A stretch of 64,000 nt of DNA, from NCBI GenBank assembly GCA_012842395.1, contig DUSX01000002.1:124001-188000 (forward strand). Direction: 5' to 3'. This DNA comes from Bacillota bacterium. Its GTDB lineage: Bacteria > Bacillota > SHA-98 > UBA4971. Below, one piece after another: positions 6,856-52,231 of this stretch. The notes beneath the pieces were generated by a model. It had not been told where the DNA came from. It worked only from the letters and a program-made list of their open reading frames with translations, and did not search any database. Every line of letters starts with the position of its first letter. Position 1 is the stretch's first letter. Made by a program: the position numbers and the translations under genes.

Positions 6856-8130
6856 TCACCTCTCGCCCCTGAGGCTGATGCTGCCGCCCGCAACGAAGGG
6901 CGCGGCGCCCACCACGAAGGGCGCCGATAGAGAAGTGCTCTCGCCGTGCCATTGCAGAGTAACCCTCACCGTGTAATAGCCAGGTAAGAGCGTGTCGGGC
7001 CAGGTGAGCCGGATCACAGTGAGACCTCCTGGGGCCGCTTTCCCGTCATGCTGGATGGCCATCACCCCGACTCGCCTCATCTGGTAATCGCGGATCTCGA
7101 TGTACCCGAGGGCTTCCATGGGCGAGCCGTCGAGGTTTTCCAGAACCACCTCGAGTGGAAGCCCGCGCCCTTCGCTGATGGCCGGCACGGTGAGCCGGGC
7201 TATTCTCGGGGCCTTCCCCGGTTCCGTCGCATCGGATACCGCGAGTTTCGGTTGCAGATCAATTGTGGTGCGCGCAACCCTCGCGCTCCCATCCGCCCTA
7301 AACGCTATCAGTGCGGAACCCGCTGGTCGCCCAGAGGCGGCAAGCCGGACCTCGGCGACGTACGTGCCACTCCTGACACGCGTGGCGTCGACCAGGCCGG
7401 ACAGGGCACGGGCGCACCCGGGAAGGCATATTGCCGAGGAGAGCGCGCCCTGCGCAGTCAACTTGCCCTCGGGGTCTCTTATGAGAATGCTCCCCGAGAT
7501 ATTGGCGTGGACCTTGCCGGAGTTTTGGCACGTCGCGGTGACAGTCAAGCTCCTTCCGTCGCCCGCTCCAGCTACCGTCAATGATGTGATGGCGAGCCCT
7601 GGCCCCACGCTCACCGACGCGTCGTGGGGTGTCGACGTGAGAAGCATGAGCACGGCCACCTGTGATGTTGTTCCGATATCGCTCGCCGCCGATTCTCCGG
7701 GGACGCTGGCCTGAAACAGAAGAACCGGGTACGCGCCTCCGAAGAACCCGTTCTTGACCCGGACCCTTACGTAAACAGGCATCGACTCCCCAGGCGCGAG
7801 CACGAACTCGGCGGGCTGGAGCACGACCTCCACGGGCTCAGTCGCCGGGTCCTCGATCGCTCGGCACGTCGGCACGCCCGCTAGATCGTGCCCGCCCATG
7901 CCGTAGGACGCTCTCACGTGTACCGGGGATGTCCCCCGGTTCGTCACGAGCACGGGCCCGAGCGTGTCGCCGTTCTTCACAGTTGCCGTGATGCTGGCCG
8001 GGCTGACGCGGATCGCAAGCCCCGCTCCGGCGTCGATGCCGCATGGGAGACGGCACGTCGCGAACACGCAGAGGAGAAAGCTCAGAACCGACGCACGAAA
8101 CATTAGGACGCTCACACGCGGTTTACGCAC
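6856..8130 (-). CDS. Secreted Ig-like protein, DUF916/chaperone-like
   Basis: 424 residues from GTG 8130, selected because AGGTGAT lies about 6 nt upstream; longer in-frame versions lack a signal peptide. An N-terminal signal segment (about 10-34) is followed by an Ig-like domain (about 38-150) with IRVSPASITATVKNG and PAEFVLAPGESMPVYVRV. This style of domain is seen in fimbrial chaperones and DUF916 cell-surface proteins. Two more beta-domains follow (about 160-260 and 280-420, CARDB-like). It stops 8 nt before the next gene, so the two are almost certainly co-transcribed. Context suggests a partner of the flanking secreted proteins, perhaps a chaperone or structural subunit. This assignment is inference. 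Confidence 0.7.
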   Translation of the reverse strand: MRKPRVSVLMFRASVLSFLLCVFATCRLPCGIDAGAGLAIRVSPASITATVKNGDTLGPVLVTNRGTSPVHVRASYGMGGHDLAGVPTCRAIEDPATEPVEVVLQPAEFVLAPGESMPVYVRVRVKNGFFGGAYPVLLFQASVPGESAASDIGTTSQVAVLMLLTSTPHDASVSVGPGLAITSLTVAGAGDGRSLTVTATCQNSGKVHANISGSILIRDPEGKLTAQGALSSAICLPGCARALSGLVDATRVRSGTYVAEVRLAASGRPAGSALIAFRADGSARVARTTIDLQPKLAVSDATEPGKAPRIARLTVPAISEGRGLPLEVVLENLDGSPMEALGYIEIRDYQMRRVGVMAIQHDGKAAPGGLTVIRLTWPDTLLPGYYTVRVTLQWHGESTSLSAPFVVGAAPFVAGGSISLRGER

Positions 8131-39832: not shown

Positions 39833-40015
39833 TCAATATACCTCCTTGCTTTCTCGTCCGCTTGACTCGAAGGCCTCATCAGCTGCCTCGTGCAATGCGG
39901 TCTTGTGGAAGCCGCACGTAGAAGCGCACTGCTATCTCGCAACCAGTAGGCCATCACTCCCTTCTGGCGTCGAGTCACAGCCTAAGTAGATCACCACAAG
40001 TTCGTGCTGCTGTTC

Positions 40016-40200
40016 AGCGCCGAGGCCCGGCCTAGGGCTGTCCACTCTCCCCCTTTGGGGCGGGCGGCGCGCTTGCGGCGCGAATGTCCGAAGTCAGCGC
40101 GCCTTGTCGCCAAATCCCGGCCGTCTCGTCGCGCAAGCGCCGGTAACCCTGGCGCCTCCAAACAGAGGAGTCGAACACTCATGGCACCATACTTAGGGAA
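40016..40200. repeat. Intergenic repeat family, copy B
   Basis: Read on the minus strand from 40196: CTAAGTATGGTGCC, then a stretch aligning with copy A through AGGGTTACCGGCGCTTGCGCGACG (40129-40152) to the GC-rich far end near 40040. The right end differs from copies C and D by one base in 14. Non-coding and located upstream of the opp operon. Confidence 0.7.
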
Positions 40201-40337
40201 GCCGAGATGCTTGGGGTAACGATCGATGAAGAACCGATTAGCCACCCACAGAACCCCGTGCTCCGCGGCTCTTCTCGCGCCGCACAATCAACGCGCGGTG
40301 CGGCATGGCGTGACGTCAGCTGCCTCACCTCTCGATA

Positions 40338-40367
40338 GTATTCGATGACGTGGGTCGAATTCCTTCC
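40338..40367 (-). promoter_or_regulatory. Degenerate bipartite motif, copy 3
   Basis: On the minus strand, GGAAGGAATT (40367-40358), an 11-base spacer, then ATCGAATAC, sharing CGAAT with the GGCGAATTG half of copies 1 and 2. The first word and the spacing are exact and the second word is partial. It may belong to the opp operon or be a chance match. Confidence 0.35.
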
Positions 40368-40452
40368 GCAGAATTCCTGGGACGGCGTGGATGTCCCATA
40401 TTCGCGCTGATATAACGAATAGACACGATTCAGACGTATCGACACGAGCTCC

Positions 40453-40481
40453 TTGCGGGGAGTGCGCCGGGAAGGTATAAT
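40453..40481 (+). promoter_or_regulatory. Predicted promoter of radical SAM operon
   Basis: TTGCGG (40453-40458), 17-base spacer, TATAAT (40476-40481): a perfect -10, a half-matching -35 and ideal spacing. 85 bases upstream of the ATG. Confidence 0.7.
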
Positions 40482-40565
40482 TGTTCCGCGAGATCAGCCT
40501 GGTGACCGCGCTGTCTGGTGGGAGTGCAGCTCGGTCGCTTGGGCGAAGGCCGAGGACGTGCACTA

Positions 40566-41879
40566 ATGATTCGGGCTTTGTACGCGGACGATCACGGCGC
40601 CATGTTTGAGGAAGGAAGCCTGGCGGCTTTCGGTCGCTCCTGGGACGAGATATGGGAGGTCCGGGAGGGCGACATGATCCCCCTCCCTCGCGGCTCCTCT
40701 CTCGTGATGCTTCCCGGGCGCCAGGCTGTCGGCATGAGGCCGGGCGACGGCGACGCACTCGCCATATGGCTAGAGACCGATAGGCGGGGGCGGCGCGAAA
40801 CGGAGGCACCAGGGTGGGCGGTGGGGGCGCTCCTACCAGCCGGGTTCACGCGAACCCTCCTTCCGGCATATGTGGTCGACCGGCGCCGCGAAATGCGAGC
40901 CCTTCCTCTTTACGGATATACCGCGGTGGGAATGAAACAAGGGAGGCCGTACGTCGCCGCACTGAGGACCGACGAGCCCTTCAGGTGGCACCCTGCGAAT
41001 TACAACGCCCCTGAGCTGCCGTCGCTCATAGAGGCGATGTTGAAGGAGCATCCAACCAATAGGATCCTGCGCCAGCTCGCGAAGTGTTCGACGGAATATC
41101 GATGCTTCACGGCGCAGAACGTCTTCTACCGCCGGTGGGAGGCGGGGATCCCCGTATCGCCGGCGTGCACGGCGTCGTGCCTGGGGTGTATCTCGCTACA
41201 GCCCGCGGGATGCTGCCCTTCCCCGCAGAGTCGCATCGACTTCGTTCCTACGCTTGACGAGATAGTCGAGATAGGCTTGCCACACCTTCGTGAAGCGCCA
41301 CACGCCATCGTAAGCTTCGGACAGGGATGTGAAGGCGAGCCCCTGCTTCAGGCCGACCTCATTGCCCGGTCCATCATGCGGATGAGGGCGGAGGTGCAGG
41401 ATAGAGGCCTCATAAACGCGAATACCAACGCGGGCCTCGTGGACGCCGTCGACAAAGTCTGCGCGGCGGGTCTCGACAGCATGAGGGTGAGCATCATCAG
41501 CGCGAGGCACGAGATATACAACGCGTACCACCGCCCGTGCGGGTACGGGCTGGACGACGTCCGAAGGTCGCTTGCCATCGCGAAGGAGAGAGGGGTTTTC
41601 GTGTCTTTGAACCTCCTCGTGTTTCCCGGCCTGACCGACCGGGAGGAGGAGCTGGACGCCTTGTGTGCTCTGGTTGAGAACGTCCACGTAGACATGGTAC
41701 AGCTTCGCAACCTGAACATCGACCCCGACGTGCTGACGGCAACGCTCCCCGGCCCCAGGGGGCGTGTGCTCGGGATCGACGCTTTCGTCGAAGAACTCCG
41801 CGCTAGGTGTCCGGGACTTCGGATCGGCAGCTTTACGCCGTCGCGTGAAGAGATCTCGTCCTCGACTATACGTGGATGA
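40566..41879 (+). CDS. Radical SAM protein of unknown reaction
   Basis: 437 residues from ATG 40566. The [4Fe-4S]/SAM motif is CTASCLGC (Cys-X3-Cys-X2-Cys) near residue 204, followed by CISLQPAGCCPSPQSR with two more cysteines that could serve an auxiliary role. VSFGQGCEGEPLL matches the GGE/SAM-binding region; the later strands MRVSIISARHEIYNAYHRP and FVSLNLLVFPG fit the radical SAM barrel. About 190 residues precede the motif without a recognised domain. Substrate unknown. First gene of a run with a UPF0104 membrane protein, an MFS transporter and DarA. Confidence 0.85.
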   Translation: MIRALYADDHGAMFEEGSLAAFGRSWDEIWEVREGDMIPLPRGSSLVMLPGRQAVGMRPGDGDALAIWLETDRRGRRETEAPGWAVGALLPAGFTRTLLPAYVVDRRREMRALPLYGYTAVGMKQGRPYVAALRTDEPFRWHPANYNAPELPSLIEAMLKEHPTNRILRQLAKCSTEYRCFTAQNVFYRRWEAGIPVSPACTASCLGCISLQPAGCCPSPQSRIDFVPTLDEIVEIGLPHLREAPHAIVSFGQGCEGEPLLQADLIARSIMRMRAEVQDRGLINANTNAGLVDAVDKVCAAGLDSMRVSIISARHEIYNAYHRPCGYGLDDVRRSLAIAKERGVFVSLNLLVFPGLTDREEELDALCALVENVHVDMVQLRNLNIDPDVLTATLPGPRGRVLGIDAFVEELRARCPGLRIGSFTPSREEISSSTIRG

Positions 41880-41892
41880 AGGGCGGACCGAC

Positions 41893-42978
41893 GTGGCTGA
41901 GCCGAAAACACCCAGAAGCACGAAAAGCCTCGTCCGCGGGGCCGCTGGCGCGGTCCTCGCCAGCGCGTTCGCCATTTTCGTCATCATGCGTCTCACGGGA
42001 GGCCGCGAGGGATGGGCGAGCCTCTTCCGCGTGGATCCCGTGTCCCTAGGCGTTGCAGGTTCGCTGGTAGCGGCCGGATGGGTCCTTGAGGCCGTGCGCA
42101 TAGAAATGCTCGTAAGGGCGCTCGGGGGCAGACTCGGGTTCATGAGCGCCCTGCGGATAGCTCTTGCAGGGGCGTTCGTTGCGTGCGTCACACCGTTTGA
42201 CACGGGAGGGGAGCCGCTCCAGGTGTACCTGCTCCACCGGCAGGGCATCGGAGCAGGCGAATCCACCGCGGTTGTGGCGGTCAAAACGATAGTGAGCTCC
42301 CTTGCGAGGCTTGGCCTGGCGCTCGTCTTTCCAGTGTGGTACATCGTGGGGCGCAGGTCTTGGGACCTTCCCGGGCGGCTTGAGGCTGCGCTCTTTGTCG
42401 GACTGGTTCTCTATGTCCTCGTCCTGGCGCTGATAGGGTTCTTTGCCCTTTATCCGGAATCTGTGGGGGCGGTCCTGCGGCGTGTCCTCCGCAATAGACG
42501 CGTCAGCAAGATCATCCCGGCCCATGCGGCAGATTCATTCCTCGAGAAGCTGAAGGCAGAGGTTGCCGGCTTTCGGGCCGCTTCTAGGACGTTCGTCCGG
42601 GAGCGCAGACCTGCGCTCGTGGCCGTTTCGGCGCTGAGCCTTCTCAGCTGGGCAATGGCGTTCTTCATCCCGGTGCTCCTCCTTCGTGGCCTTGGCGTTG
42701 ACCCGCCCTTCGCCCAAACCATGGGCATCGCCGGCATATTCTACCTTGCCGCCGCATATGCGCCGACGCCGGGGTCTAGCGGGGCAGCCGAAGCAAGCTT
42801 GGCGGTGCTCTTCGGGGCGATAGTGCCGTTCAGACTCCTTGGCGTCTTCGTGCTTCTTTGGAGAGGCCTCACCTACTATCTGACGCTCCTGGTCGGGGCC
42901 GTGGCGGTCGCCGCGAGTTATCTGCACGGCGGAACGCGCCGGAGCAATGGCGATGGAAGAAGGAAATCTCCTGGTTGA
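41893..42978 (+). CDS. UPF0104/LPG-synthase-TM family membrane protein
   Basis: 361 residues from GTG 41893, with AAGGGCGG 7 nt upstream. Eight or so transmembrane helices in the layout of the lysylphosphatidylglycerol-synthase membrane domain (flippase-like, YbhN family), with the characteristic TPFDTGGEPLQVYLLHRQG loop and, late, YAPTPGSSGAAEASLAVLFG. No cytoplasmic transferase domain follows, so aminoacyl-lipid synthesis is unlikely; lipid translocation or an unknown role is more plausible. Lies 13 bases after the radical SAM gene. Confidence 0.85.
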   Translation: MAEPKTPRSTKSLVRGAAGAVLASAFAIFVIMRLTGGREGWASLFRVDPVSLGVAGSLVAAGWVLEAVRIEMLVRALGGRLGFMSALRIALAGAFVACVTPFDTGGEPLQVYLLHRQGIGAGESTAVVAVKTIVSSLARLGLALVFPVWYIVGRRSWDLPGRLEAALFVGLVLYVLVLALIGFFALYPESVGAVLRRVLRNRRVSKIIPAHAADSFLEKLKAEVAGFRAASRTFVRERRPALVAVSALSLLSWAMAFFIPVLLLRGLGVDPPFAQTMGIAGIFYLAAAYAPTPGSSGAAEASLAVLFGAIVPFRLLGVFVLLWRGLTYYLTLLVGAVAVAASYLHGGTRRSNGDGRRKSPG

Positions 42979-42992
42979 AGGTGTAAGTCGTC

Positions 42993-44399
42993 ATGTCCAT
43001 TGATAAAGGCCTCACATTCAGCGGGCCTGCCGCAACAGGCGAGCGGCAGGAGGCAAGCGGGCGTTTGCGCACGGTGCGGCTAAGGTCGCGCCGGCGGACG
43101 CTCGGGCGTCCGGCGAGGCCCACAAGCACGATACGCCACAATTTCATATACACGACCCTTGAGGGAATGGCGACCAACACTGCCTTCGGCCTCGTCAACC
43201 CCTTCCTTGGAGTCTACGCCATCGCCCTGGGGGCATCGAGCCTGCTTGTGGCCCTGCTCACGGCCGTCCCGGCACTCGCCAACGCGCTGGTCTTCCTTCC
43301 CGCTGCAAGCCTGGTTGAAAGGCGTAAGGCTCGTCTCCCGGTGGTTCTCCTGTGGGCGGGTTTACACAGGCTGCTTTACGTTGCCCTGGCCCTTGTCCCG
43401 TTTCTGCCCGTGCTCCAGACGGGCAAAGCTGCCGTGCTCGTGGCCATAGTCACTTTGATGTCGGTGCCCGGTGCCATCTCCGGTGTGGCCTGGACCGCGA
43501 TGGTTGGCGACATGTTTCCCGAGAACCGACGGGGCGAGGTGTTCGGGCTCAGGAACATGTACATCGGGCTCACGAGCGTTCTCGGGACGCTTGCGGCCGG
43601 ATATCTCTTGGATAGTGTGGATTTCCCGGCCAACTACCTGCTGCTCTTCATGACCGCCGCGTGCTTCGGTGGCCTCGGGATTGCTTTCATGTCGAGGATG
43701 CGGGAGGTGGCTCCGCCCGAGAAGCCGGGGCAGGAAGCGAGCCAAGGCCTCATATCCAGAGTAAGGGACCTTCTCACCGATAAGGAATACGGCCACAAGT
43801 TCAAATTCTTCTCACTGAGCTGCTTCATGCTTTGGTTCGGGTTCGGGTTCACTGCCGCGATGTGGCCCATATACCACGTCGAAGTCCTGTCCCTTTCCAA
43901 TGCCACGATCGGTGCGTTTGCGACGCTCGCGGGGATCGCCACGGTCGTGGGCTCAGTATACTGGGGAAAAGTCGTGTCCCGCCGGGGCAACAGGATCGTC
44001 CTGCTCATCTGCATGGCGGGGATGGCGCTCTTCCCCGCGGCCTACATGCTTTCGCGGTCGGTGTCGTACCTTTATGGGATGCAGCTCATATCGGGGTTCT
44101 GCATGGGCGGCATCAACCTTGCCGTGTTCAATCTAGCTCTTGCGTACGCCAAACCCGGCAGAAGCGCAAGCGCGGTCGCGGTCTTCAACATGTTGATAAA
44201 CGTGGCGACCTTCGTTGCGCCGTTCCTCGGCGACGCGTTCTACCGGATGTTCGGGATTCAGCTCACGTTCTACGCGGGCACGTGTGTCCGCCTGGTATCG
44301 CTGCTGCTTCTTTCCAGAATCATGGATCGGCCGGCTCGCGTGATACCGCCCGTACAATGGGTCCGCCGCAGGCGCGTGGCCATCTCGAAGGAGGGGTGA
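42993..44399 (+). CDS. MFS transporter
   Basis: Major facilitator protein, 468 residues from ATG 42993. A basic N-terminal tail of about 48 residues precedes twelve predicted helices. The conserved loop between helices 2 and 3 is present in modified form (LVERRKARLP), and the helix 4-5 region has GDMFPENRRGEVFGLRN, common in drug-efflux and nucleoside-like MFS groups. The substrate cannot be told. 14 bases after the UPF0104 gene, 5 bases before darA. Confidence 0.88.
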   Translation: MSIDKGLTFSGPAATGERQEASGRLRTVRLRSRRRTLGRPARPTSTIRHNFIYTTLEGMATNTAFGLVNPFLGVYAIALGASSLLVALLTAVPALANALVFLPAASLVERRKARLPVVLLWAGLHRLLYVALALVPFLPVLQTGKAAVLVAIVTLMSVPGAISGVAWTAMVGDMFPENRRGEVFGLRNMYIGLTSVLGTLAAGYLLDSVDFPANYLLLFMTAACFGGLGIAFMSRMREVAPPEKPGQEASQGLISRVRDLLTDKEYGHKFKFFSLSCFMLWFGFGFTAAMWPIYHVEVLSLSNATIGAFATLAGIATVVGSVYWGKVVSRRGNRIVLLICMAGMALFPAAYMLSRSVSYLYGMQLISGFCMGGINLAVFNLALAYAKPGRSASAVAVFNMLINVATFVAPFLGDAFYRMFGIQLTFYAGTCVRLVSLLLLSRIMDRPARVIPPVQWVRRRRVAISKEG

Positions 44400-44404
44400 G
44401 GGGA

Positions 44405-44731
44405 ATGAAGCTGGTCTTCGCCATCGTGAAGGACAGCGATGCCTCGGCTCTGCTCGACGCCTTTGCGGAAAGGCACATAGGCGCGACTCGGCTGGCGTCG
44501 ACAGGTGGATTCCTGCGCGAAGGCAACACCACGTTCTTGATAGGCGTGGAAGACCACAGGGTCCAGGAGGTTATCAGCGTTATCACGAAATGTTGCCCGA
44601 GGCGAATCGAGGCGGCCCCTCAGTTCACGCCTGGGACGGGTCAGATGCCGTTCGGCGGACTCCCGGTGCAGGTGGAGGCGGGAGGGGCCATAGTGTTTGT
44701 CACCACCGTTGAGAGTTTCATTCGCGTGTAG
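44405..44731 (+). CDS. darA: Cyclic-di-AMP receptor DarA (PII-like)
   Basis: Small trimeric PII-like protein that binds c-di-AMP in Bacillota (DarA/YaaQ/PstA). 108 residues from ATG 44405, with AGGAGGGG upstream. The family hallmark TGGFLREGNTTFLIGVED is present, with the glycine-rich loop TPGTGQMPFGG corresponding to the large T/B-loop region. The c-di-AMP synthase DisA is encoded at 60675-61769 in this window. Output partner unknown. Confidence 0.93.
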   Translation: MKLVFAIVKDSDASALLDAFAERHIGATRLASTGGFLREGNTTFLIGVEDHRVQEVISVITKCCPRRIEAAPQFTPGTGQMPFGGLPVQVEAGGAIVFVTTVESFIRV

Positions 44732-45025
44732 GTGGTGGGGTTGCGAAGACGGTCCCGGCTCTCGGCAAGGGTCGCATGCGATTGCACGATGGGTGCCAAA
44801 ACCGGCCACTGGCCGCCCGGGCCGGGGCTGGGTTTTGCGAGGCGCCCGCCCGGGGCGCCGCATCCGAATGCAAGCCCGTCAATCCGATAAACTGCCGAAA
44901 CAGGGCCGAGGACCAACGCACCCTTGCCCAGACGGGCGCGCGTCCGTCTGGGCAGGAGGTGCCGGCCCGGTGTGAAATGCCCCATGGTGGAGGACCGCAG
45001 GGCAGCGTTGTAGAAGAATAGACAC
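44732..45025. other. Gap between darA and the cyclase gene, with repeat and hairpin
   Basis: About 290 bases, non-coding. The first half is repeat copy F. At 44925-44954, TGCCCAGACGG and CCGTCTGGGCA form an 11-bp perfect stem with an 8-base loop. No T-run follows. No promoter stands out. Confidence 0.6.
44745..44905. repeat. Intergenic repeat family, copy F
   Basis: The core at 44780-44860 (GATTGCACGA ... GGCCACTGGCC ... GGGTTTTGCGA ... GGGGCGCCG) aligns with copy E at 48742-48819 (GATTGCGCGA ... GGCCATTGGCC ... GGGTTTTGCGA ... GGTGCGCCG) with matching order and similar spacing. The outer parts have diverged. Confidence 0.65.
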
Positions 45026-46909
45026 ATGAAACGCACGTTTGCACGCCGCGAAGCTGGCAGCGGGCCCCACGGCAAGACCCGCGAATTCAAGACGATAGTG
45101 GCCGGGCTCCTCATAGCGGTGGCGGTCATCTGCCTGGACGGCACAGGTGCGGGCGAGCGCGCCGGGCTTGCCGCGTACGATCTGTGCCACAGAATGGCAC
45201 CCGGGCCGTTTCCGACGCGGCGCATCGTCATCGTGGGCATCGACGACGATTCTCTTGCGCACCTCGGACCGTGGCCGTGGCCGAGGTCTTACCACGCTAG
45301 GCTCATTGAGATTCTCACCCGCGAGAAGGCAGGCGTCATAGGGTTCGACGTGATGATGCCTGACGCGTCCGGCGATGCCGCGGCCGATAACGCCCTCGCT
45401 AGGGCCGCCGCGGCCTCAGGTTTAGTCGTTTTCCCCTTCTACGCGGAGAACAAGGTGCTTCCGCGCGGGTCCCACGTCTTCTATGTGGCCGGTGCCAGGA
45501 AACCGCCGTATCCGGCGCTTGAGCGCGCGTCCGTAAGTGGTAGCGTTGTCGCGGTGCCGGACGCGGACGGGGTGCTGCGCCGTCACGTTCCCGTCGTGTT
45601 GGACGGGGGGACGCCGCGCTACTCGATGGACGTGGAGGTTGTCAGGGTATTCCTGGGGCTTCCGCGTTCGGCTGTTTCGCTTGAGGACGGCGGGCTTCGG
45701 CTGGGCGAGCTGAGGGTGCCAATGGATTCCACGGGCCGCGTGCTCATTCGGTACTCCTCTGGGTCACCCGTGGGCCCGAAGTTCGAGACGCTTCCCTACT
45801 ACAAGGTGATCAGCGGCGAGTTCCCGCCGGGCGAGTTCGCGGGCAAGATCGTGCTTGTGGGCGTAACCGCACATGGCCTTCATGACTTCTACTTCACGCC
45901 CCTTGCCACGGCAGGAAGCCCGGTTGCTGGGGTGGAGATACACGCCAATGTGGTGCAGGCGCTCCTCGACGGGCTCATCGTGCGTGAGCCTGCGAGGTGG
46001 CTCGCGTGCGCACTGCTCCTCGCGTTTTCAGTCGCGGCCGCGTTAGGGCTGGCGAGGCTTCGGCCGCGGGCGGCCTGCGTTGCAGCCTTCCTGGCAGTGG
46101 CCTGCATTGCCTGCCTTAGCTTGACCCTTTTCGCACGGGCGAGCATCTGGGCCAACCCCGTGCCGGTCATGGTGGTCCTTGCCGTCGTGTTGGCGCGCCA
46201 CATCGTAGTCTCGTATGCGCGCACCGAAGCCGAGCGGGACAGGACGAGGACGACGCTCGGACGGTATCTATCACCAGCCGTGGTCGAGGAGGTCCTCAAA
46301 GCCCCTGGGAGAGTCGCCCTCGGAGGGAGGCGGCTCGACGTCACTGTCATGTTCGCGGACATCCGGGGCTTCACGTCGTTCGCCGAGGGAAGGGACCCCG
46401 AGCATGTCGTGGAAGTGCTGAACGCCTGCCTCTCAATGATGGTGGAGGCCGTCTTCAGAGAAGGCGGCATGCTCGACAAATTCACAGGGGATGGTGTCAT
46501 GGCCGTGTTCGGCGCGCCGGTTCCACGGGAGGACCACGCTCTCCGGGCGGCTAGGGCTGCGCTTGCTATCAGCAGGACCTGTGGGTGGGGGCCCACCGGC
46601 GGCGGTGTCGCGGCCGCCCACGACGCTGGCGGCGCCGGGGTCAACGACGTCAAACTCAGCGTGGGCGTGGGGATGGCCTCGGGAGAGGCACTGGTCGGCA
46701 ACATCGGGACCCTTGCGCGCATGGACTACACGGCCATCGGCGACGTTGTGAACATTGCAGCGCGGCTCGAAGGCATGGCCGGCCCGGGCCAAGTGCTTGT
46801 GTGCGGCCGGACTTACCAGGCCATACAGGGCCTGGTCGAGGCCCGCAGGGTGGGGTCGGTCGAGGTGAAGGGCAGGTCGTTGCCTGTGGAAGTGTATGAG
46901 CTCTTCTGA
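45026..46909 (+). CDS. CHASE2-domain adenylate cyclase (class III)
   Basis: Membrane-bound cyclase making cAMP. 627 residues. One N-terminal helix (about 22-38), an extracytoplasmic CHASE2 sensor (about 45-320, with IVIVGIDDDSLAHLGPWPWPR), three hydrophobic helices (about 325-395), a short coiled linker, and a class III catalytic domain (about 430-627). Metal aspartates: D445 in FADIRGFTSF and D489 in DKFTGDGVMAVFG. Purine-specifying pair K485 and T569 (YTAIGD), the Lys/Thr form used by bacterial adenylate rather than guanylate cyclases; N576 and R580 for transition-state binding. Followed by FecR-domain and CRP-family genes. Confidence 0.93.
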   Translation: MKRTFARREAGSGPHGKTREFKTIVAGLLIAVAVICLDGTGAGERAGLAAYDLCHRMAPGPFPTRRIVIVGIDDDSLAHLGPWPWPRSYHARLIEILTREKAGVIGFDVMMPDASGDAAADNALARAAAASGLVVFPFYAENKVLPRGSHVFYVAGARKPPYPALERASVSGSVVAVPDADGVLRRHVPVVLDGGTPRYSMDVEVVRVFLGLPRSAVSLEDGGLRLGELRVPMDSTGRVLIRYSSGSPVGPKFETLPYYKVISGEFPPGEFAGKIVLVGVTAHGLHDFYFTPLATAGSPVAGVEIHANVVQALLDGLIVREPARWLACALLLAFSVAAALGLARLRPRAACVAAFLAVACIACLSLTLFARASIWANPVPVMVVLAVVLARHIVVSYARTEAERDRTRTTLGRYLSPAVVEEVLKAPGRVALGGRRLDVTVMFADIRGFTSFAEGRDPEHVVEVLNACLSMMVEAVFREGGMLDKFTGDGVMAVFGAPVPREDHALRAARAALAISRTCGWGPTGGGVAAAHDAGGAGVNDVKLSVGVGMASGEALVGNIGTLARMDYTAIGDVVNIAARLEGMAGPGQVLVCGRTYQAIQGLVEARRVGSVEVKGRSLPVEVYELF

Positions 46910-46946
46910 CGCGTTCGAGCGAGAATGGTGGTATCTGGGCCTGTTC

Positions 46947-46962
46947 TGTGACGGCCGTCACC
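46947..46962. promoter_or_regulatory. Predicted CRP-family operator (TGTGA-N6-TCAC)
   Basis: TGTGACGGCCGTCACC: half sites TGTGA and TCAC(C) around CGGCCG, one base short of the full E. coli CRP consensus, and a perfect 14-bp palindrome at 46948-46961. It lies 37 bases after the cyclase stop and 115 bases before the FecR gene. The CRP-family protein encoded at 47922-48674 keeps the R-E-x-x-x-R recognition residues that read TGTGA. Confidence 0.6.
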
Positions 46963-47076
46963 GAAACGCCGCGCACACCAGGTAAACTAGAAATGGGAGC
47001 TTGTGCTCATCTCCTCTGCCCGCGGCGCTCGCGCCGCGCCTGGTGTAGGAGGGGCCGGGAGGCAAGGTGAAGGAAT

Positions 47077-47910
47077 ATGGCGCAGCGCAGCAGTCCTGGC
47101 ACACAGCCGAGCCTCTTTGCGCGCCTTGTGCGCCGGAGGCGTCGGGTTCGCTCGTATCTCGCGTTGCTTGCGATCATGATTCTCTATGTCGTGCTCTGCG
47201 TCATGCCCGGCGGACACGGACGCGGTGGCGGAGCATGGGCGCAGCCCGTCGCCACAGGCGTGATCGCGACGGTTGCGACGGTTGAGGGAACGTGCACGCG
47301 TCTTCCCGCAAGATCTGCAGAGTGGGTCGAAACAAGGGCAGGGGGCCTGATCTACGGCGGCGACCGGCTGAAGTGCGGGCCTGACTCCTGGGCCGTCATC
47401 GACCTCGTTGACGGCGGCTCTGTCACGCTCGGTCCTGGCTGCGAGGTTCAGTTCGACTCGCTCCTGTACGTGCGCCTGTTCATCGGCAGGCTGTGGGCAA
47501 GAATACAGCCGGTTGCGCCCGGCGGGACTGACTTTCGCGTGGAGACTCCTAGCGCGGTGGTGGGCGTCCGAGGTACGCATTTCACTGTCTGGGTGAGCGA
47601 CGAATACGCAACCACTGTCTCCGTCGAGTCGGGAGTGGTGGAGGTGCTCGGAGCGGGGCAAGCGGTTCTGGTTCCAGAGGGGTACGCTACCCGGGTGAGA
47701 CGAGGCCAGGCTCCCGAGGAGCCGGGGCCCATGGGCGATGACGAAAAGCGGGCGTGGGCGGAGAGACGGGGCAGGCTCAAGGGACAGACCGGCAGCGATG
47801 GGGACAGTGGGTACGACAGTGGTGACAAGAAGGGTGGCAAGCAAGACGTTCACAACGGAAAGGCTCCGGGTCCTCCGGATGACCGTCCCGGCGGCGGGGG
47901 CAAGGGGTAA
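47077..47910 (+). CDS. FecR-domain protein, membrane-anchored
   Basis: 277 residues from ATG 47077 (AAGGTGAAGGA upstream). A basic N-terminus and one hydrophobic helix (about 27-45) anchor it; the outside part carries a FecR domain (about 60-200: GGDRLKCGPDSWAVIDL, TPSAVVGVRGTHFTVWV). The tail (about 215-277) is a low-complexity Gly/Asp/Lys linker. FecR domains pair with CHASE2 cyclases in several genomes; here it may scaffold or modulate the sensor. Role inferred from context only. Confidence 0.85.
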   Translation: MAQRSSPGTQPSLFARLVRRRRRVRSYLALLAIMILYVVLCVMPGGHGRGGGAWAQPVATGVIATVATVEGTCTRLPARSAEWVETRAGGLIYGGDRLKCGPDSWAVIDLVDGGSVTLGPGCEVQFDSLLYVRLFIGRLWARIQPVAPGGTDFRVETPSAVVGVRGTHFTVWVSDEYATTVSVESGVVEVLGAGQAVLVPEGYATRVRRGQAPEEPGPMGDDEKRAWAERRGRLKGQTGSDGDSGYDSGDKKGGKQDVHNGKAPGPPDDRPGGGGKG

Positions 47911-47921
47911 AGTGTGACTGC

Positions 47922-48674
47922 TTGAGAGAAGGCTCGATTGATGGGAGACGCATTGGCTCCGACCGGGGGTGGTGTGAGCTGAGACAGAACCCTGAGCCCG
48001 AGCAGATCCTCAGGACTGTACCGCTTTTCAGCCGCCTGGACCACGCGAGCCTCGAGAAACTCTCGGGGATCGCGTGCAAGCGGCGTTACGGGCGCGGTAG
48101 CCACATCTTCCTCGAGGGCGACCCTGGCGGTTTTCTTTTGATCATCGCCGAAGGGCAAGTCAAAATCCACAAAGTCTCCGAAGACGGACGCGAGAAGACC
48201 CTTGCCATCCTGGAGGCCGGGGATTTCTTCGGCGAGATGAGCGTCTTCGACGGCGCTCCGAGGTCGGCGTCTGCCCAGGCTCTATCCGACTGCGAGGTGC
48301 TCATCATCGACCGCGAGCCGTTTCTCGCCCTCCTGAAAACCACGCCCGGACTCGCGGCCGACGTAGCGCTCGCCCTCGTGGAGCGATTGCGCAGGACGAA
48401 CGACGACCTAGAACGCCTCGCATTCCGGGACGCGCGCGGGAAGGTTGTCGAGGCACTGCTTCAGCTTGCGGAAGCCCATGGCGAGAGGGTGGCCTGCGGC
48501 CTGCGTCTCAAGGTGAAGCTGACCCACCAGGAGCTTGCGAATTACGCCGGCGTGACGCGGGAGACGGTTACAAGGGTCCTCGCCGAGCTTGGGGAAGCTG
48601 GGCTCGTGACGGTCGATCGCGGGAGACGACTCGTCATTCGCGACGAAGAGGCGTTGCGTGAAGTCCTGCTATGA
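47922..48674 (+). CDS. CRP/FNR-family transcription regulator
   Basis: cAMP-responsive regulator candidate. 250 residues from TTG 47922; the true start may be up to 20 codons later. Cyclic-nucleotide domain about 30-145 with the phosphate-binding cassette FFGEMSVFDGAPRSAS: G104, E105, R114 and S115 match the cAMP ligands of E. coli CRP. No FNR cysteine cluster is present. Helix-turn-helix LTHQELANYAGVTRETVTRVL carries R213, E214 and R218, equivalent to R180, E181 and R185 of CRP. Directly follows the FecR gene. Confidence 0.93.
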   Translation: MREGSIDGRRIGSDRGWCELRQNPEPEQILRTVPLFSRLDHASLEKLSGIACKRRYGRGSHIFLEGDPGGFLLIIAEGQVKIHKVSEDGREKTLAILEAGDFFGEMSVFDGAPRSASAQALSDCEVLIIDREPFLALLKTTPGLAADVALALVERLRRTNDDLERLAFRDARGKVVEALLQLAEAHGERVACGLRLKVKLTHQELANYAGVTRETVTRVLAELGEAGLVTVDRGRRLVIRDEEALREVLL

Positions 48675-48913
48675 CGATCCTTTGACTGAGTGAAGGTGCG
48701 TTAGTCTTTGCCTTATTTCCAGCAGCTGCCGGGTTGCCGGTGATTGCGCGAGAGGTGTCGAGACCTGGCCATTGGCCTGACGCGCCGGGTTTTGCGAAGA
48801 GACCCCGCTTGGTGCGCCGTCCGCGAGGGCAACACTAGCAACCCCCGGCCCAATAATCAGAAGCGTTTTCGGCTCCCCACTTAGAGGCATAACGGGTGTC
48901 CCGAGGAGGTCTT
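48675..48913. other. Gap between CRP-family gene and DNA alkyltransferase gene
   Basis: About 240 bases, mostly repeat copy E (48718-48848). No promoter was recognised with confidence. Confidence 0.5.
48718..48848. repeat. Intergenic repeat family, copy E
   Basis: Begins CAGCAGCTGCCGGGTTGCCGGTGATTG and ends GAGGGCAACACTAGCAACCCCCGG; the ends GCCGGGTTGC and GCAACCCCCGG are inverted relative to each other, as in copy A. The core is shared with copy F, and the beginning is shared with the fragment at 62282-62310. Non-coding. Confidence 0.7.
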
Positions 48914-49471
48914 TTGGCGGTGGCTGTTTCACTGTCGGCATACGGGCACGTGGACCGGGTTTTCCTCTCCGCATTGGAGTCCCCCGTCGGGACTCTCCGG
49001 CTTGCCTCGACCTCAGGGGGTCTGGTGAAGGTGAGCCTCCCGGCCGAAGGCGAGAACGGGTTCCTGGCATGGCTGGCGCTCCGGTTCCCCGGCGCGGACC
49101 TCGTTTGCTCAAGCGACGAGAATGGCGAGTTTCATCGGCAGCTCGAAGAGTACTTTCAGGGTTCCCGGACGGCCTTCGACTGCCGGGTCAAGGTCGCCGG
49201 GAGCGCGTTCACCAGGCAGGTCCTGGAAGAGACTAGAAGGATCCCGTTTGGCGGCACGGCCTCTTACGGTGAAGTTGCGGCCGCCATAGGTCAACCGCTT
49301 GCGGCGAGGGCGGTTGGCAGAGCTCTCGCGGCCAACCCACTTCCCATAATCATCCCCTGCCACCGGGTGATCGGGAAAGGCGGATCGCTCGTGGGGTTCG
49401 GCGGGGGCCTTGTCTTGAAAGGGTGGCTCCTTGCTCACGAGCGCAGGGTGCTGTATGGGCAGCCCACATAG
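48914..49471 (+). CDS. ogt: Methylated-DNA-protein cysteine methyltransferase
   Basis: Suicide DNA-repair enzyme removing alkyl groups from O6-guanine. About 185 residues; TTG 48914 (AGGAGG 4 nt upstream) or GTG 48920 may start it. The active-site motif PCHRV is present (IIIPCHRVIGKGG), with the helix-turn-helix region SYGEVAAAIGQPLAARAVGRAL and C-terminal GFGGGLVLKGWLLAHE. The N-terminal domain is short, as in Ogt/MGMT-type proteins without an AdaA domain. Transcribed singly. Confidence 0.92.
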   Translation: MAVAVSLSAYGHVDRVFLSALESPVGTLRLASTSGGLVKVSLPAEGENGFLAWLALRFPGADLVCSSDENGEFHRQLEEYFQGSRTAFDCRVKVAGSAFTRQVLEETRRIPFGGTASYGEVAAAIGQPLAARAVGRALAANPLPIIIPCHRVIGKGGSLVGFGGGLVLKGWLLAHERRVLYGQPT

Positions 49472-49711
49472 CACGTCTGGGTCAGGGAACGTCTTGCCAC
49501 CCCCCTGCCGTGCGAGCGGAGTCGAGCAAGGCCATGGGTCGCCTTGCGGCGACCCGCGCCTCCATATTGTCTGTGGGCGTGTTGACGCGCGCGAGCGAAC
49601 AGTGGCGCGATATATAGTGAAAGTGCAAGCTCGCCCCGCGAGTCCGGCGATCGCGGCCGCACACGGCGCATCGCGCCGGTTATTCCATGATGCATCTTTT
49701 AGAAGGCTTGG

Positions 49712-49720
49712 TGCTATAAT
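49712..49720 (+). promoter_or_regulatory. Extended -10 promoter of the ctsR operon
   Basis: TGC plus TATAAT (49715-49720). No strong -35. The predicted transcription start falls at the edge of or inside the CtsR operator immediately downstream. Confidence 0.65.
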
Positions 49721-49722
49721 AT

Positions 49723-49747
49723 GGTCGAAAGGTCAGGAAAGGTCAAA
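49723..49747. promoter_or_regulatory. CtsR operator, three GGTC heptads
   Basis: GGTCAGG (49731-49737), AAA, GGTCAAA (49741-49747) matches the CtsR direct-repeat consensus (heptad-NAN-heptad), and another GGTCGAA lies at 49723-49729 one base upstream. Bound CtsR would block the promoter, giving the classical autoregulated class III heat-shock control. Confidence 0.8.
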
Positions 49748-49811
49748 GTGGTTCCTGGCAATACCAAATCGTAGATGCCGCGATATCGCAGGACATCGGG
49801 AAGGGAAATCC

Positions 49812-50273
49812 GTGGGCAACCTCGCAGACTACATTGAGAGCTACCTGAAACGGCTCCTCGAAAACGCCGAGCAGGGCATGATAGAGCTGCAAAGGCGCGA
49901 GCTTGCGGAGATGTTCAAATGCGTGCCTTCACAGATCAACTACGTGCTGACGACGAGGTTTACGCCTGATAGGGGTTACATCGTGGAGACCCGCAGAGGG
50001 GGTGGCGGTTACATCCGCATAGTCCGGCTGTCCTTTCGACCGAGCCAAGACCTGAGGTCTCTCATTGAGGCGGAGATTGGGGACGAGATCACGGAGAGGC
50101 GGGCTGACGCGCTGCTGCTCCGGCTCGAGGACGAGGGGCTGCTCGATGAGGGCGATCGCGCATTTGTGAAGGCCGTCATCGAGCGTGAGACGGGAAGGCT
50201 GCACCCGAGCTACCGCGGTATGGTACGGGCGAGCCTTCTGAGAGCCATGGTGATGTCGTTGCTGCGCGAGTAA
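49812..50273 (+). CDS. ctsR: Class III stress gene repressor CtsR
   Basis: Dimeric repressor of clp genes, inactivated at heat shock. 153 residues from GTG 49812, chosen because AAGGGAAA lies about 6 nt upstream. N-terminal winged helix: LADYIESYLKRLLENAEQG, ELAEMFKCVPSQINYVLTTRF; wing TRRGGGGYIRIVR with the glycine loop that contacts DNA and senses temperature. The C-terminal helical domain is present. It is separated from mcsA by about 350 bases containing repeat copy C, unusual for this normally tight operon. Confidence 0.96.
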   Translation: MGNLADYIESYLKRLLENAEQGMIELQRRELAEMFKCVPSQINYVLTTRFTPDRGYIVETRRGGGGYIRIVRLSFRPSQDLRSLIEAEIGDEITERRADALLLRLEDEGLLDEGDRAFVKAVIERETGRLHPSYRGMVRASLLRAMVMSLLRE

Positions 50274-50623
50274 GGTGTGAGCACGCCCGTAAGTCACGGC
50301 GGGGAAATGCTCCCGGCTTTCGGGCGGGGCTGCCGGTCGTTGCACGAGGTGTGTCAGAATCCAGCCGCTTGCGGTGCGGGCGGGATTCTGGCGGAGCGCT
50401 TCCCGGTTGAGGCGCTGTCCCTGGATGCGGCACGGGCGACCCTGCACGTGACGGGAACAGTCCGTCGATGGACGTAGCTTCGTCGACGCAACCTTACTTG
50501 GGGCCGCGGGCGTTGTGCGGGAATGGCGCGAGAGATGGCGAAGAGATGACGAGAGCCACGCGAGAAACTCGTGGCGCCATACTTAGACACATAGACACAT
50601 ACGGAATGTGGGGGGTGTGAGCG
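50274..50623. other. Gap between ctsR and mcsA
   Basis: 350 bases without a gene inside an otherwise compact operon. Repeat copy C occupies most of it. I see no separate promoter for mcsA. Confidence 0.55.
50320..50590. repeat. Intergenic repeat family, copy C
   Basis: Left part GGGGCTGCCGGTCGTTGCACGAGGTGT (50327-50352) aligns with the start of copy E; the right end is GGCGCCATACTTAG (50573-50586), the exact complement of the 14-mer in copy D. The middle has diverged or is longer than in other copies. Located between ctsR and mcsA. Confidence 0.65.
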
Positions 50624-51148
50624 ATGGTATGCGACGAATGCGGAAAGAGACCCGCGAACGTTCACCTAACCAAGATAATCAACGGTGTGAAGACCGAGTC
50701 GCACCTTTGTGAGCAGTGCGCGCGTGAGAAGGGCGAGCTCGACTTCTTCTCCGAGCCCAAGTTCTCGTTTCCAAGCCTTCTCGCAGGGCTGCTCCAATAT
50801 GACCCCGGCTTCACGGCGCCGCTCACCATACCGGGCGGCGTGACAAGCCGCTGCCGGAGTTGCGGCCTGGACTTCTCAGAGTTCCGGAACACCGGGTTCC
50901 TCGGATGTCCCGACTGCTACGAGGAATTCCGCGGGAGGCTGGAGCCGCTTCTGAGGCGCGTCCACGGCAGCGTGCGCCATACTGGGAAGGTTCCTGGAAA
51001 GACGGGCGCGACAGCGGGCAAGAGGCGGGAGATCGAGGAGCTGCGTGCCGAGCTTGCGAGATTGGTGGCGAAGGAGCAGTACGAGGAGGCCGCGAAGGTC
51101 CGGGACAGGATCCGCGCTCTTGAGAAGGATCTCGCGGGCGAGTCGTGA
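50624..51148 (+). CDS. mcsA: McsA, activator of protein arginine kinase
   Basis: Zinc protein that activates McsB and helps deliver substrates. 174 residues from ATG 50624. Two CxxC pairs near the start (CDECGKRP, CEQCAREKG) and two more (CRSCGLDFS, CPDCYEEF) form the zinc sites; the C-terminus is a UVR motif (ARLVAKEQYEEAAKVRDRI) like that in ClpC. Lies 15 bases before mcsB. Confidence 0.96.
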   Translation: MVCDECGKRPANVHLTKIINGVKTESHLCEQCAREKGELDFFSEPKFSFPSLLAGLLQYDPGFTAPLTIPGGVTSRCRSCGLDFSEFRNTGFLGCPDCYEEFRGRLEPLLRRVHGSVRHTGKVPGKTGATAGKRREIEELRAELARLVAKEQYEEAAKVRDRIRALEKDLAGES

Positions 51149-51163
51149 GAGGAGGGTGCCGAC

Positions 51164-52231
51164 GTGTCTCTTGAGGACATAATAGACAAGACGACCAGCG
51201 CTTGGATGCAGGCCGACGCGCCGTCCGCCGACGTGGTTTTGAGCTCTCGAGTGAGGCTCGCCCGGGATCTCGCGGGCATACCCTTTCCGCACCGGGCGTC
51301 AGAAGCGGACCTAGCGAGGGTGGCGGACCAGGTTCAGCGGGCGATTAGGACCACGAAGGAGCTCTCAGACCTCGTTGTGATCCGCCTGGCGGAGACGCCC
51401 GCACTTGACCGACAGATCCTCGTCGAGAAGCATCTCATCAGCCCGCAGCACGCGCAGGGCGCGAGACACCGGCTCGTGGCGATTCGTCCAGACGAGACCG
51501 TGAGCGTGATGGTGAACGAGGAAGACCACCTTCGCATCCAGGCCCTTCTCCCGGGGCTGCAGCTCGAGGAGGCCCTCAAGCTTGCGAGCCAGGTTGACGA
51601 CCTGTTCGAGACCAAGCTGGATTACGCCTTCGACGAGAAGCTGGGCTATATCACGGCGTGCCCCACAAATGTGGGCACGGGGCTGCGCGCATCGGTCATG
51701 GTGCACCTGCCCGCCCTGGCCGCTACAGGCCAAGTCGGTCGTGTGCTGGCCACCGTTTCCAACGTGGGCATCGCCGTCAGGGGACTATATGGCGAGGGGT
51801 CCGAGGCCACGGGCAATGTGTTCCAGCTTTCGAACCAGGTGACCCTGGGTCGCTCCGAGGACGAGCTCGTGGACAACCTCGTGGGCGTGACCAAACAGAT
51901 CATCGGCCAGGAGCGGAGCGTGCGCGAGAAACTGGTGCGTGACAGGAGAGACCAACTTGAAGACAAGGTGAATCGCGCCTACGGGCTCCTGTCTCACGCC
52001 CGGCTCATAACATCCCAGGAGGCGTTGGGGCTCTTGTCGGACGTACGGCTCGGCGTCGAGGCTGGGCTCCTCCCCGGCGTCGACGCGAAGACCCTGAACG
52101 AGCTCATGGTCATCACGCAGCCCGCATACCTCCAGAGGATAATGGGGAAGGAGCTCGGGCCCCACGAGAGAGACGTGCGACGGGCCGCGCTGATAAGAGA
52201 GAAGATAAAGGCGAGGAAGGAAGGTAGATAA
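51164..52231 (+). CDS. mcsB: Protein arginine kinase McsB
   Basis: Phosphorylates arginines on misfolded proteins, marking them for ClpCP. 355 residues from GTG 51164, normal length. Phosphagen-kinase-type core: [50 protein letters not shown]. The C-terminal region that includes the phospho-arginine pocket is present. It ends 2 bases before clpC. Confidence 0.97.

Follow-up and report, generated by a model that had tools for sequence, protein, structure and literature searches.

The palindrome at positions 46947-46962 of the 64,000-nucleotide stretch of DNA analysed here (the window) is very probably the landing site of the CRP-family regulator encoded by the same gene module, given that the contact bases are kept in all six related species. 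As this site precedes the operon that includes the regulator gene, autoregulation is probable. It is considered likely that the palindrome is the operator through which the module's own CRP, together with cAMP, would activate the fecR-crp unit in class II fashion, corresponding to direct positive autoregulation. The module and its putative control elements are arranged as follows.

45026-46909, + strand: CHASE2-domain class III adenylate cyclase (cya), 627 amino acids (Pfam CHASE2, 1.3e-55; Guanylate_cyc, 3.6e-23)
46947-46962, no strand assigned: putative CRP-type operator, TGTGA-CGGCCG-TCACC, one mismatch to TGTGA-N6-TCACA, GTGA/TCAC invariant in 6/6 same-genus genomes
46983-46988, + strand: -10-like hexamer TAAACT, at offset 20 after the operator (score p = 0.002 against window background)
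47077-47910, + strand: FecR-domain protein, 277 amino acids, with a hydrophobic N-terminal stretch (Pfam FecR, 2.2e-10)
47922-48674, + strand: CRP-family regulator of up to 250 amino acids, the TTG start being uncertain (Pfam cNMP_binding, 3e-28; HTH_Crp_2, 1.6e-19)

The cyclase resembles solved adenylate cyclases in sequence matching, and contains the lysine (in DKFTGDG) and the aspartate (in MDYTAIG) that select ATP in such enzymes. The enzyme is the probable source of cAMP. The first gene 3' of the operator is fecR, and all five same-genus relatives carry a homologue in the equivalent position. Only 11 bases separate fecR and crp here, with this spacing ranging from 11 to about 120 bp in the genus. 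Gene calling relied on a basic codon-scoring script for which the window had served as training set; it assigned the fecR start differently at some loci and failed to call the gene in certain class relatives. When the 80 nearest CRP loci were considered, genes for CHASE2 and FecR proteins were found inside the fetched stretch in at least four, three of which belong to the same genus; this count is a lower bound, as no flank exceeded 6 kb and contig ends shortened some of them. By eye, an inverted repeat, ACACCAGG ... CCTGGTGT, was also noted in the fecR leader (46976-47047), and a GGG...CCC hairpin-like stretch likewise follows the -10 in the relatives.

The putative operator lies in the 167-bp gap between the cyclase gene and the fecR-crp pair (46910-47076), with the cya stop codon lying 37 bases 5' and the fecR ATG lying 114 bases 3'. 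The original prediction had reported a near-consensus CRP palindrome upstream of fecR and the regulator gene, and its position, bases and coordinates were all borne out. Specifically, TGTGACGGCCGTCACC occupies 46947-46962, with TGTGA-CGGCCG-TCAC spanning 46947-46961 and a C at 46962, such that nine of the ten CRP consensus bases are present in half-sites (TGTGA/TCACA) spaced by six bases. Within this sequence, GTGACGGCCGTCAC (46948-46961) forms a perfect 14-bp palindrome, at the heart of what appears by eye to be a 22-bp near-palindrome, TTC-T-GTGACGGCCGTCAC-C-GAA, with one unpaired position. In Markov simulations, the chance of a match with at most one mismatch in the 167-bp gap was 0.0015, or 0.0024 with window composition, while the probability of a perfect palindrome of at least 14 bp in the gap was 0.014. 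Across the whole window, no significant enrichment of matches with up to two mismatches was detected (23 found versus 16.9 expected; 8 of 100 shuffles reached 23), and two further single-mismatch places occur, at 7003 and 37316. The case for 46947-46962 rests on position and conservation, not on abundance.

Conservation was considered in 17 genomes, namely, that containing the window, five of the same genus, seven of a sister genus and four of the same class, using protein searches. The presence of cya, fecR and this CRP was revealed in 6/6 genomes of the genus and in 4/4 class relatives (unlinked in G014). In the sister genus, all three were absent at the orthologue level in 7/7 genomes; one of these, G007, encodes a distant cyclic nucleotide-binding (CNB) protein (E value of 5e-7 to the query) and was counted as being without this CRP. 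In all six same-genus genomes, own included, a site was located between the cyclase gene and fecR, reading TGTGACGGCCGTCACC, TGTGACGCCGGTCACA, TGTGATGGGGATCACG, TGTGATAGTGATCACA (two genomes) and GGTGATGACGATCACA; that of G002 overlaps with the 3' end of cya. Loss of the palindrome from relatives that keep the module, the observation named beforehand as weighing against the original prediction, was thus not seen in any of the six. When the near-duplicate G004 was dropped, mean pairwise identity was 100% for the eight core bases (GTGA/TCAC), 43% for the spacer, 45% for the two outer bases, 35% for the 30 bases to the left of the site and 41% for the 70 bases to the right. Such an invariant core set against diverged spacer and flanks is as seen for sites bound by proteins.

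These comparisons also bear on whether the palindrome serves a protein at all. Its location shortly after the cya stop codon, together with its self-complementarity over 14 bp in the own genome, would suit a hairpin terminating cya transcription or another RNA element, or the sequence could have arisen by chance. However, no T run follows the palindrome, a terminator search of the gap yielded none on the + strand, no Rfam family was found in 40000-52000, and the spacer is not self-complementary in G002, G003, G004 or G005, despite the contact bases being kept; chance, in turn, has to contend with a match probability of about 0.002. Taken as a whole, such an explanation is very unlikely, and terminator, hairpin and riboswitch readings were rejected on the basis of the terminator and Rfam searches and of the non-palindromic spacers of the relatives.

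Binding by the module's own CRP is, by contrast, in keeping with the properties of the regulator. A PF00027 (cyclic nucleotide-binding) search identified this CRP as the sole such protein in the own genome, with each of the five same-genus relatives likewise encoding one. Both the CNB domain and the Crp helix-turn-helix scored over cut-off (cNMP_binding and HTH_Crp_2, respectively). The assertion that the regulator keeps the R-E-x-x-x-R residues was confirmed, with the recognition helix RETVTR being aligned to RETVGR of E. coli K-12 CRP. At the cAMP-contact positions, namely, Glu72, Arg82, Ser83, Thr127 and Ser128 in E. coli numbering, Glu, Arg, Ser and Thr are kept, while Asn is found at the position of Ser128. 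The nearest solved relatives by sequence are the Crp/Fnr-family regulators 3i54 and 3d0s, the relatives from M. tuberculosis, which also present Thr-Asn at the Thr127-Ser128 positions. Because the score on the NCBIfam CRP equivalog NF008732 was 116 bits, as compared to a cut-off of 266 bits, the protein is best described as a family relative and not as a formal orthologue of enterobacterial CRP. Separately, it was noted that the CRPs of the class relatives (L128-L131), three of which adjoin a CHASE2 cyclase and fecR, do not present Thr at the Thr127 position, such that their ligand binding may differ.

Examination of the region downstream of the operator revealed a promoter-like arrangement. 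Offsets were counted from the end of the 16-mer and hexamers were scored using a -10 weight matrix written from general knowledge. With TAAACT as the -10 hexamer, transcription is predicted to start near 46995, placing the operator centre at about -40.5. In E. coli class II promoters, a site centred at -41.5 places the -10 hexamer at offset 21. A -10-like hexamer was found at offset 20-21 in 6/6 genus genomes, being weak in five, with the relatives presenting CAAAGT, CAACGT, CAATTT, CAATCT and CATTGT at offset 21. Scored singly, the relatives' hexamers gave p values of 0.04-0.18, with that scored in G003 being TCAATT at offset 20. Averaged over five sequences, the -10 score was best at offsets 20-21 among 120 offsets, a value reached in 0 of 5,000 random shifts. 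No sigma-70-type promoter was found in 44700-49000, nor was a -35 element found. The combination of weak -10 hexamers, no -35 and no sigma-70-type promoter is what an activator-dependent promoter would be expected to show, and the spacing fits a class II CRP-dependent promoter for the fecR-crp unit.

The same conservation of the site and the same recognition helix would equally serve a CRP that represses its own operon, and occupancy of the -35 region by such a protein could likewise keep RNA polymerase off the fecR-crp promoter. Such negative autoregulation is nonetheless unlikely, since the class II spacing, the weak -10 hexamers and the lack of a -35 element are as for an activator-dependent promoter, and since a second promoter, considered below, presents identical spacing in 6/6 genomes. 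The autoregulation would, according to these features, most likely be positive. Direct autoregulation, as called for by the original prediction, is supported at the level of sequence by the presence of the site in 6/6 genomes, the sole PF00027 protein, the matching helix and the promoter geometry.

The putative second class II-type CRP promoter precedes a gene encoding a protein of about 286 residues.

Own genome, C34:338100-343200 (L021), site at 2560 (see also L242): putative second class II-type CRP promoter, before the ~286-residue protein gene

This protein is Ala-rich with a signal-peptide-like start, scored below cut-off for every Pfam and NCBIfam family, and is encoded by a gene that follows a methyl-accepting-chemotaxis-like gene. 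When 55 site orientations, corresponding to 28 distinct own-genome sites with the window site taken in one orientation only, were considered, a strong -10 at offset 20-22 was seen in but two, namely, the window site and the 286-residue protein promoter. The site before the latter gene was detected in 6/6 same-genus genomes, being perfect in five and carrying one mismatch in the other, with the -10 at offset 21 reading TAATAT, TAGAAT, TAACAT (three genomes) and TATCAT (p values of 0.0007 to 0.0026 each). In the sister genus, three genomes (G007, G009 and G010) encode a homologue, and allowing two mismatches revealed no site in the 450 bp upstream of any of these genes (3/3). At the class level, the homologue in G014 is preceded by a perfect site with, by eye, TAAAAT at offset 22; of four other homologues with usable upstream sequence, three presented no site and one a poor two-mismatch match. 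A search for the site plus TANNNT at offset 20-21 over the 17 genomes yielded four own-genome matches, including the fecR and 286-residue protein promoters; a third recurs nearly unchanged in three relatives and was taken as probably coding. This two-part pattern misses the relatives' fecR promoters, where the -10 begins with C or TC. On the basis of site and spacing, this CRP very probably also drives the promoter of the 286-residue protein gene.

In the three class relatives whose module genes are linked, no CRP-like site was found between cya and fecR (0/3), and the position of the operator between these genes is genus-specific. In these same genomes, two CRP-like sites lie 23 bp apart directly after crp, and not before fecR.

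L204, 1414-1452: tandem CRP-like sites after crp (class relative)
L205, 7530-7568: tandem CRP-like sites after crp (class relative)
L206, 5899-5937: tandem CRP-like sites after crp (class relative)

The second tandem site is followed at offset 21 by TATAAT, TATAAT and TAATAT in G013, G015 and G016, respectively. The sites precede a gene for a different secreted protein, rich in Ala and Gly, whose frame was seen in G013 and G015; profile comparison of this protein with the 286-residue protein gave no significant match. In the same-genus genome G001, several GTGA-N6-TCAC palindromes (L209, at 2967, 3240 and 3300) were observed in repeated sequence after crp, near copies of which occur elsewhere in that genome.

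A scan for TGTGA-N6-TCACA had been proposed as a check, and was run. Although six perfect 16-mers were obtained in the own genome, the plain count is misleading, because the operator of the NADH-sensing repressor Rex overlaps this motif and Rex (PF06971) is encoded in 17/17 genomes, own included. The Rex box, TTGTGAAW4TTCACAA (PMC2883068), shares the TGTGA-N6-TCACA frame. The own genome contains 28 distinct TGTGA-N6-TCAC sites (34 oriented hits). Perfect 16-mers were counted alongside matches to the reversed pattern as a control, giving 38 versus 2 in the six genus genomes, 16 versus 8 in the seven from the sister genus and 11 versus 1 in the four from the class. Of the six in the own genome, one covers a coding-sequence start (L017), one each precedes the NuoE-like gene and the NDH-2/DoxX-type gene, one belongs to the 286-residue protein promoter, and the remaining two are those in L020 and L024.

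L015, L145, L148, L157, L166, L169, L178, L180, L181 and L191: Rex-type sites before the NuoE-like gene (PF01257)
L011, site at 2499, and L140, L153, L155 and L162: element upstream of the NDH-2/DoxX-like gene

That the 46947 site is itself a Rex operator, TTGTGAA-N4-TTCACAA fitting within the same frame, might be proposed from the universal presence of Rex among these genomes and from the perfect 16-mers before the NuoE-like gene in 10 genomes, four being sister-genus genomes without this CRP. Yet a TGTGAA half-site is found in 10/10 of the NuoE-type sites versus 0/12 of the fecR and 286-residue protein sites, where the sixth base is C or T only, and the sister-genus genomes keep Rex while the site is absent at the 286-residue protein homologue (3/3). 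A Rex operator at 46947 is hence highly improbable. The sixth bases of the window operator are C/C, with the half-sites reading TGTGAC/GGTGAC as opposed to the TGTGAA of Rex, and the lack of a TGTGAA half points to a site of the CRP type. A -10 at CRP spacing was seen in 1/10 of the NuoE-type sites. The notion that all TGTGA-N6-TCACA sites form a CRP regulon was rejected, given that, among the six perfect own-genome 16-mers, that before the NuoE-like gene is Rex-like, that before the NDH-2/DoxX-type gene is not followed by a suitably spaced -10 and that in L017 covers a coding start.

Two further sets of sites were noted. An element, CGTGTGTGAT...TCACAATCACAA, lies upstream of a gene for an NDH-2/DoxX-like protein of 583 residues and is conserved in five genomes; its halves are of the T/C type, a correctly spaced -10 is lacking in 5/5 genomes, and its regulator may be Rex, CRP or another protein. 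In addition, a TGTGA-N6-TCACA site lies 47 bp before a carbon-monoxide-dehydrogenase-like gene of 662 codons (L142, L149, L163 and L136). In these genomes, this gene and the Rex gene are found on one contig, a few kb apart, and the former looks like a Rex target.

Considering the sequence, conservation, gene content, spacing and co-loss computed here, binding, cAMP dependence, activation and co-transcription may be envisaged as follows. A signal perceived by the CHASE2 domain would lead the upstream adenylate cyclase to make cAMP. The CRP-cAMP dimer would then bind 46947-46962, as suggested by the conserved contact bases and the recognition helix. Centred near -41 before the -10-like hexamer, bound CRP would occupy the place of the missing -35 element and, in the manner of class II activators, would recruit RNA polymerase, with fecR and crp presumably being transcribed together. 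The same CRP-cAMP would also activate the gene for the secreted 286-residue protein. More tentatively, and with somewhat less than even confidence, it is suggested that cAMP in this genus serves a dedicated, self-amplifying, two-promoter circuit and not a global one, and that the class II design is the conserved output, found in the class relatives before an apparently unrelated secreted protein.

To our knowledge, control by cAMP-CRP is not the usual picture in Bacillota. The present findings would offer a sharp and testable cAMP circuit in a lineage of this phylum, with a located operator and a probable second target. The sister genus, without cyclase, fecR or this CRP and with three homologues of the second target that lack the site, provides a natural experiment. 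At the same time, the findings serve as a warning that TGTGA-N6-TCACA scans in Rex-bearing genomes mix two regulons, which can be separated with the help of the base adjoining TGTGA (C or T versus A).

Comparison with known systems places the module in context. In Sinorhizobium meliloti, Clr (Crp family, SMc02175), CyaD1 (SMc02176, CHASE2) and the FecR-domain protein gene smc02177 bear consecutive locus tags; smc02177 is activated by Clr and carries a Clr box in its promoter, with other Clr targets being proteins, either secreted or periplasmic, whose function is unknown (PMC5498481, PMC10127613). The module described here is like the Clr/CyaD1/SMc02177/SMc02178 cascade in clustering Crp-family, CHASE2 cyclase and FecR genes and, judged by gene content and site, is of the Clr type in presenting a Crp-type box before fecR. 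Unlike the site here, the Clr box is HGTYHCNNNNGRWACA and not TGTGA-N6-TCACA; moreover, crp here follows fecR. Autoregulation of clr by a Clr box is not described in the portions of these reports consulted (PMC5498481, PMC10127613). A Campylobacterota cluster similarly places a CHASE2 adenylate cyclase beside a FecR-domain protein gene but adds a phosphodiesterase and a TPR protein, with no Crp gene being named in the part of the report relied on (PMC9239204). In light of these parallels, the kind of module is already known. With E. coli CRP, the regulator shares the RETVxR helix, the TGTGA-N6-TCACA operator and the placement of a -10-like hexamer some 21 bases downstream of it, yet the conserved regulon found here comprises two promoters and not about 200 units.
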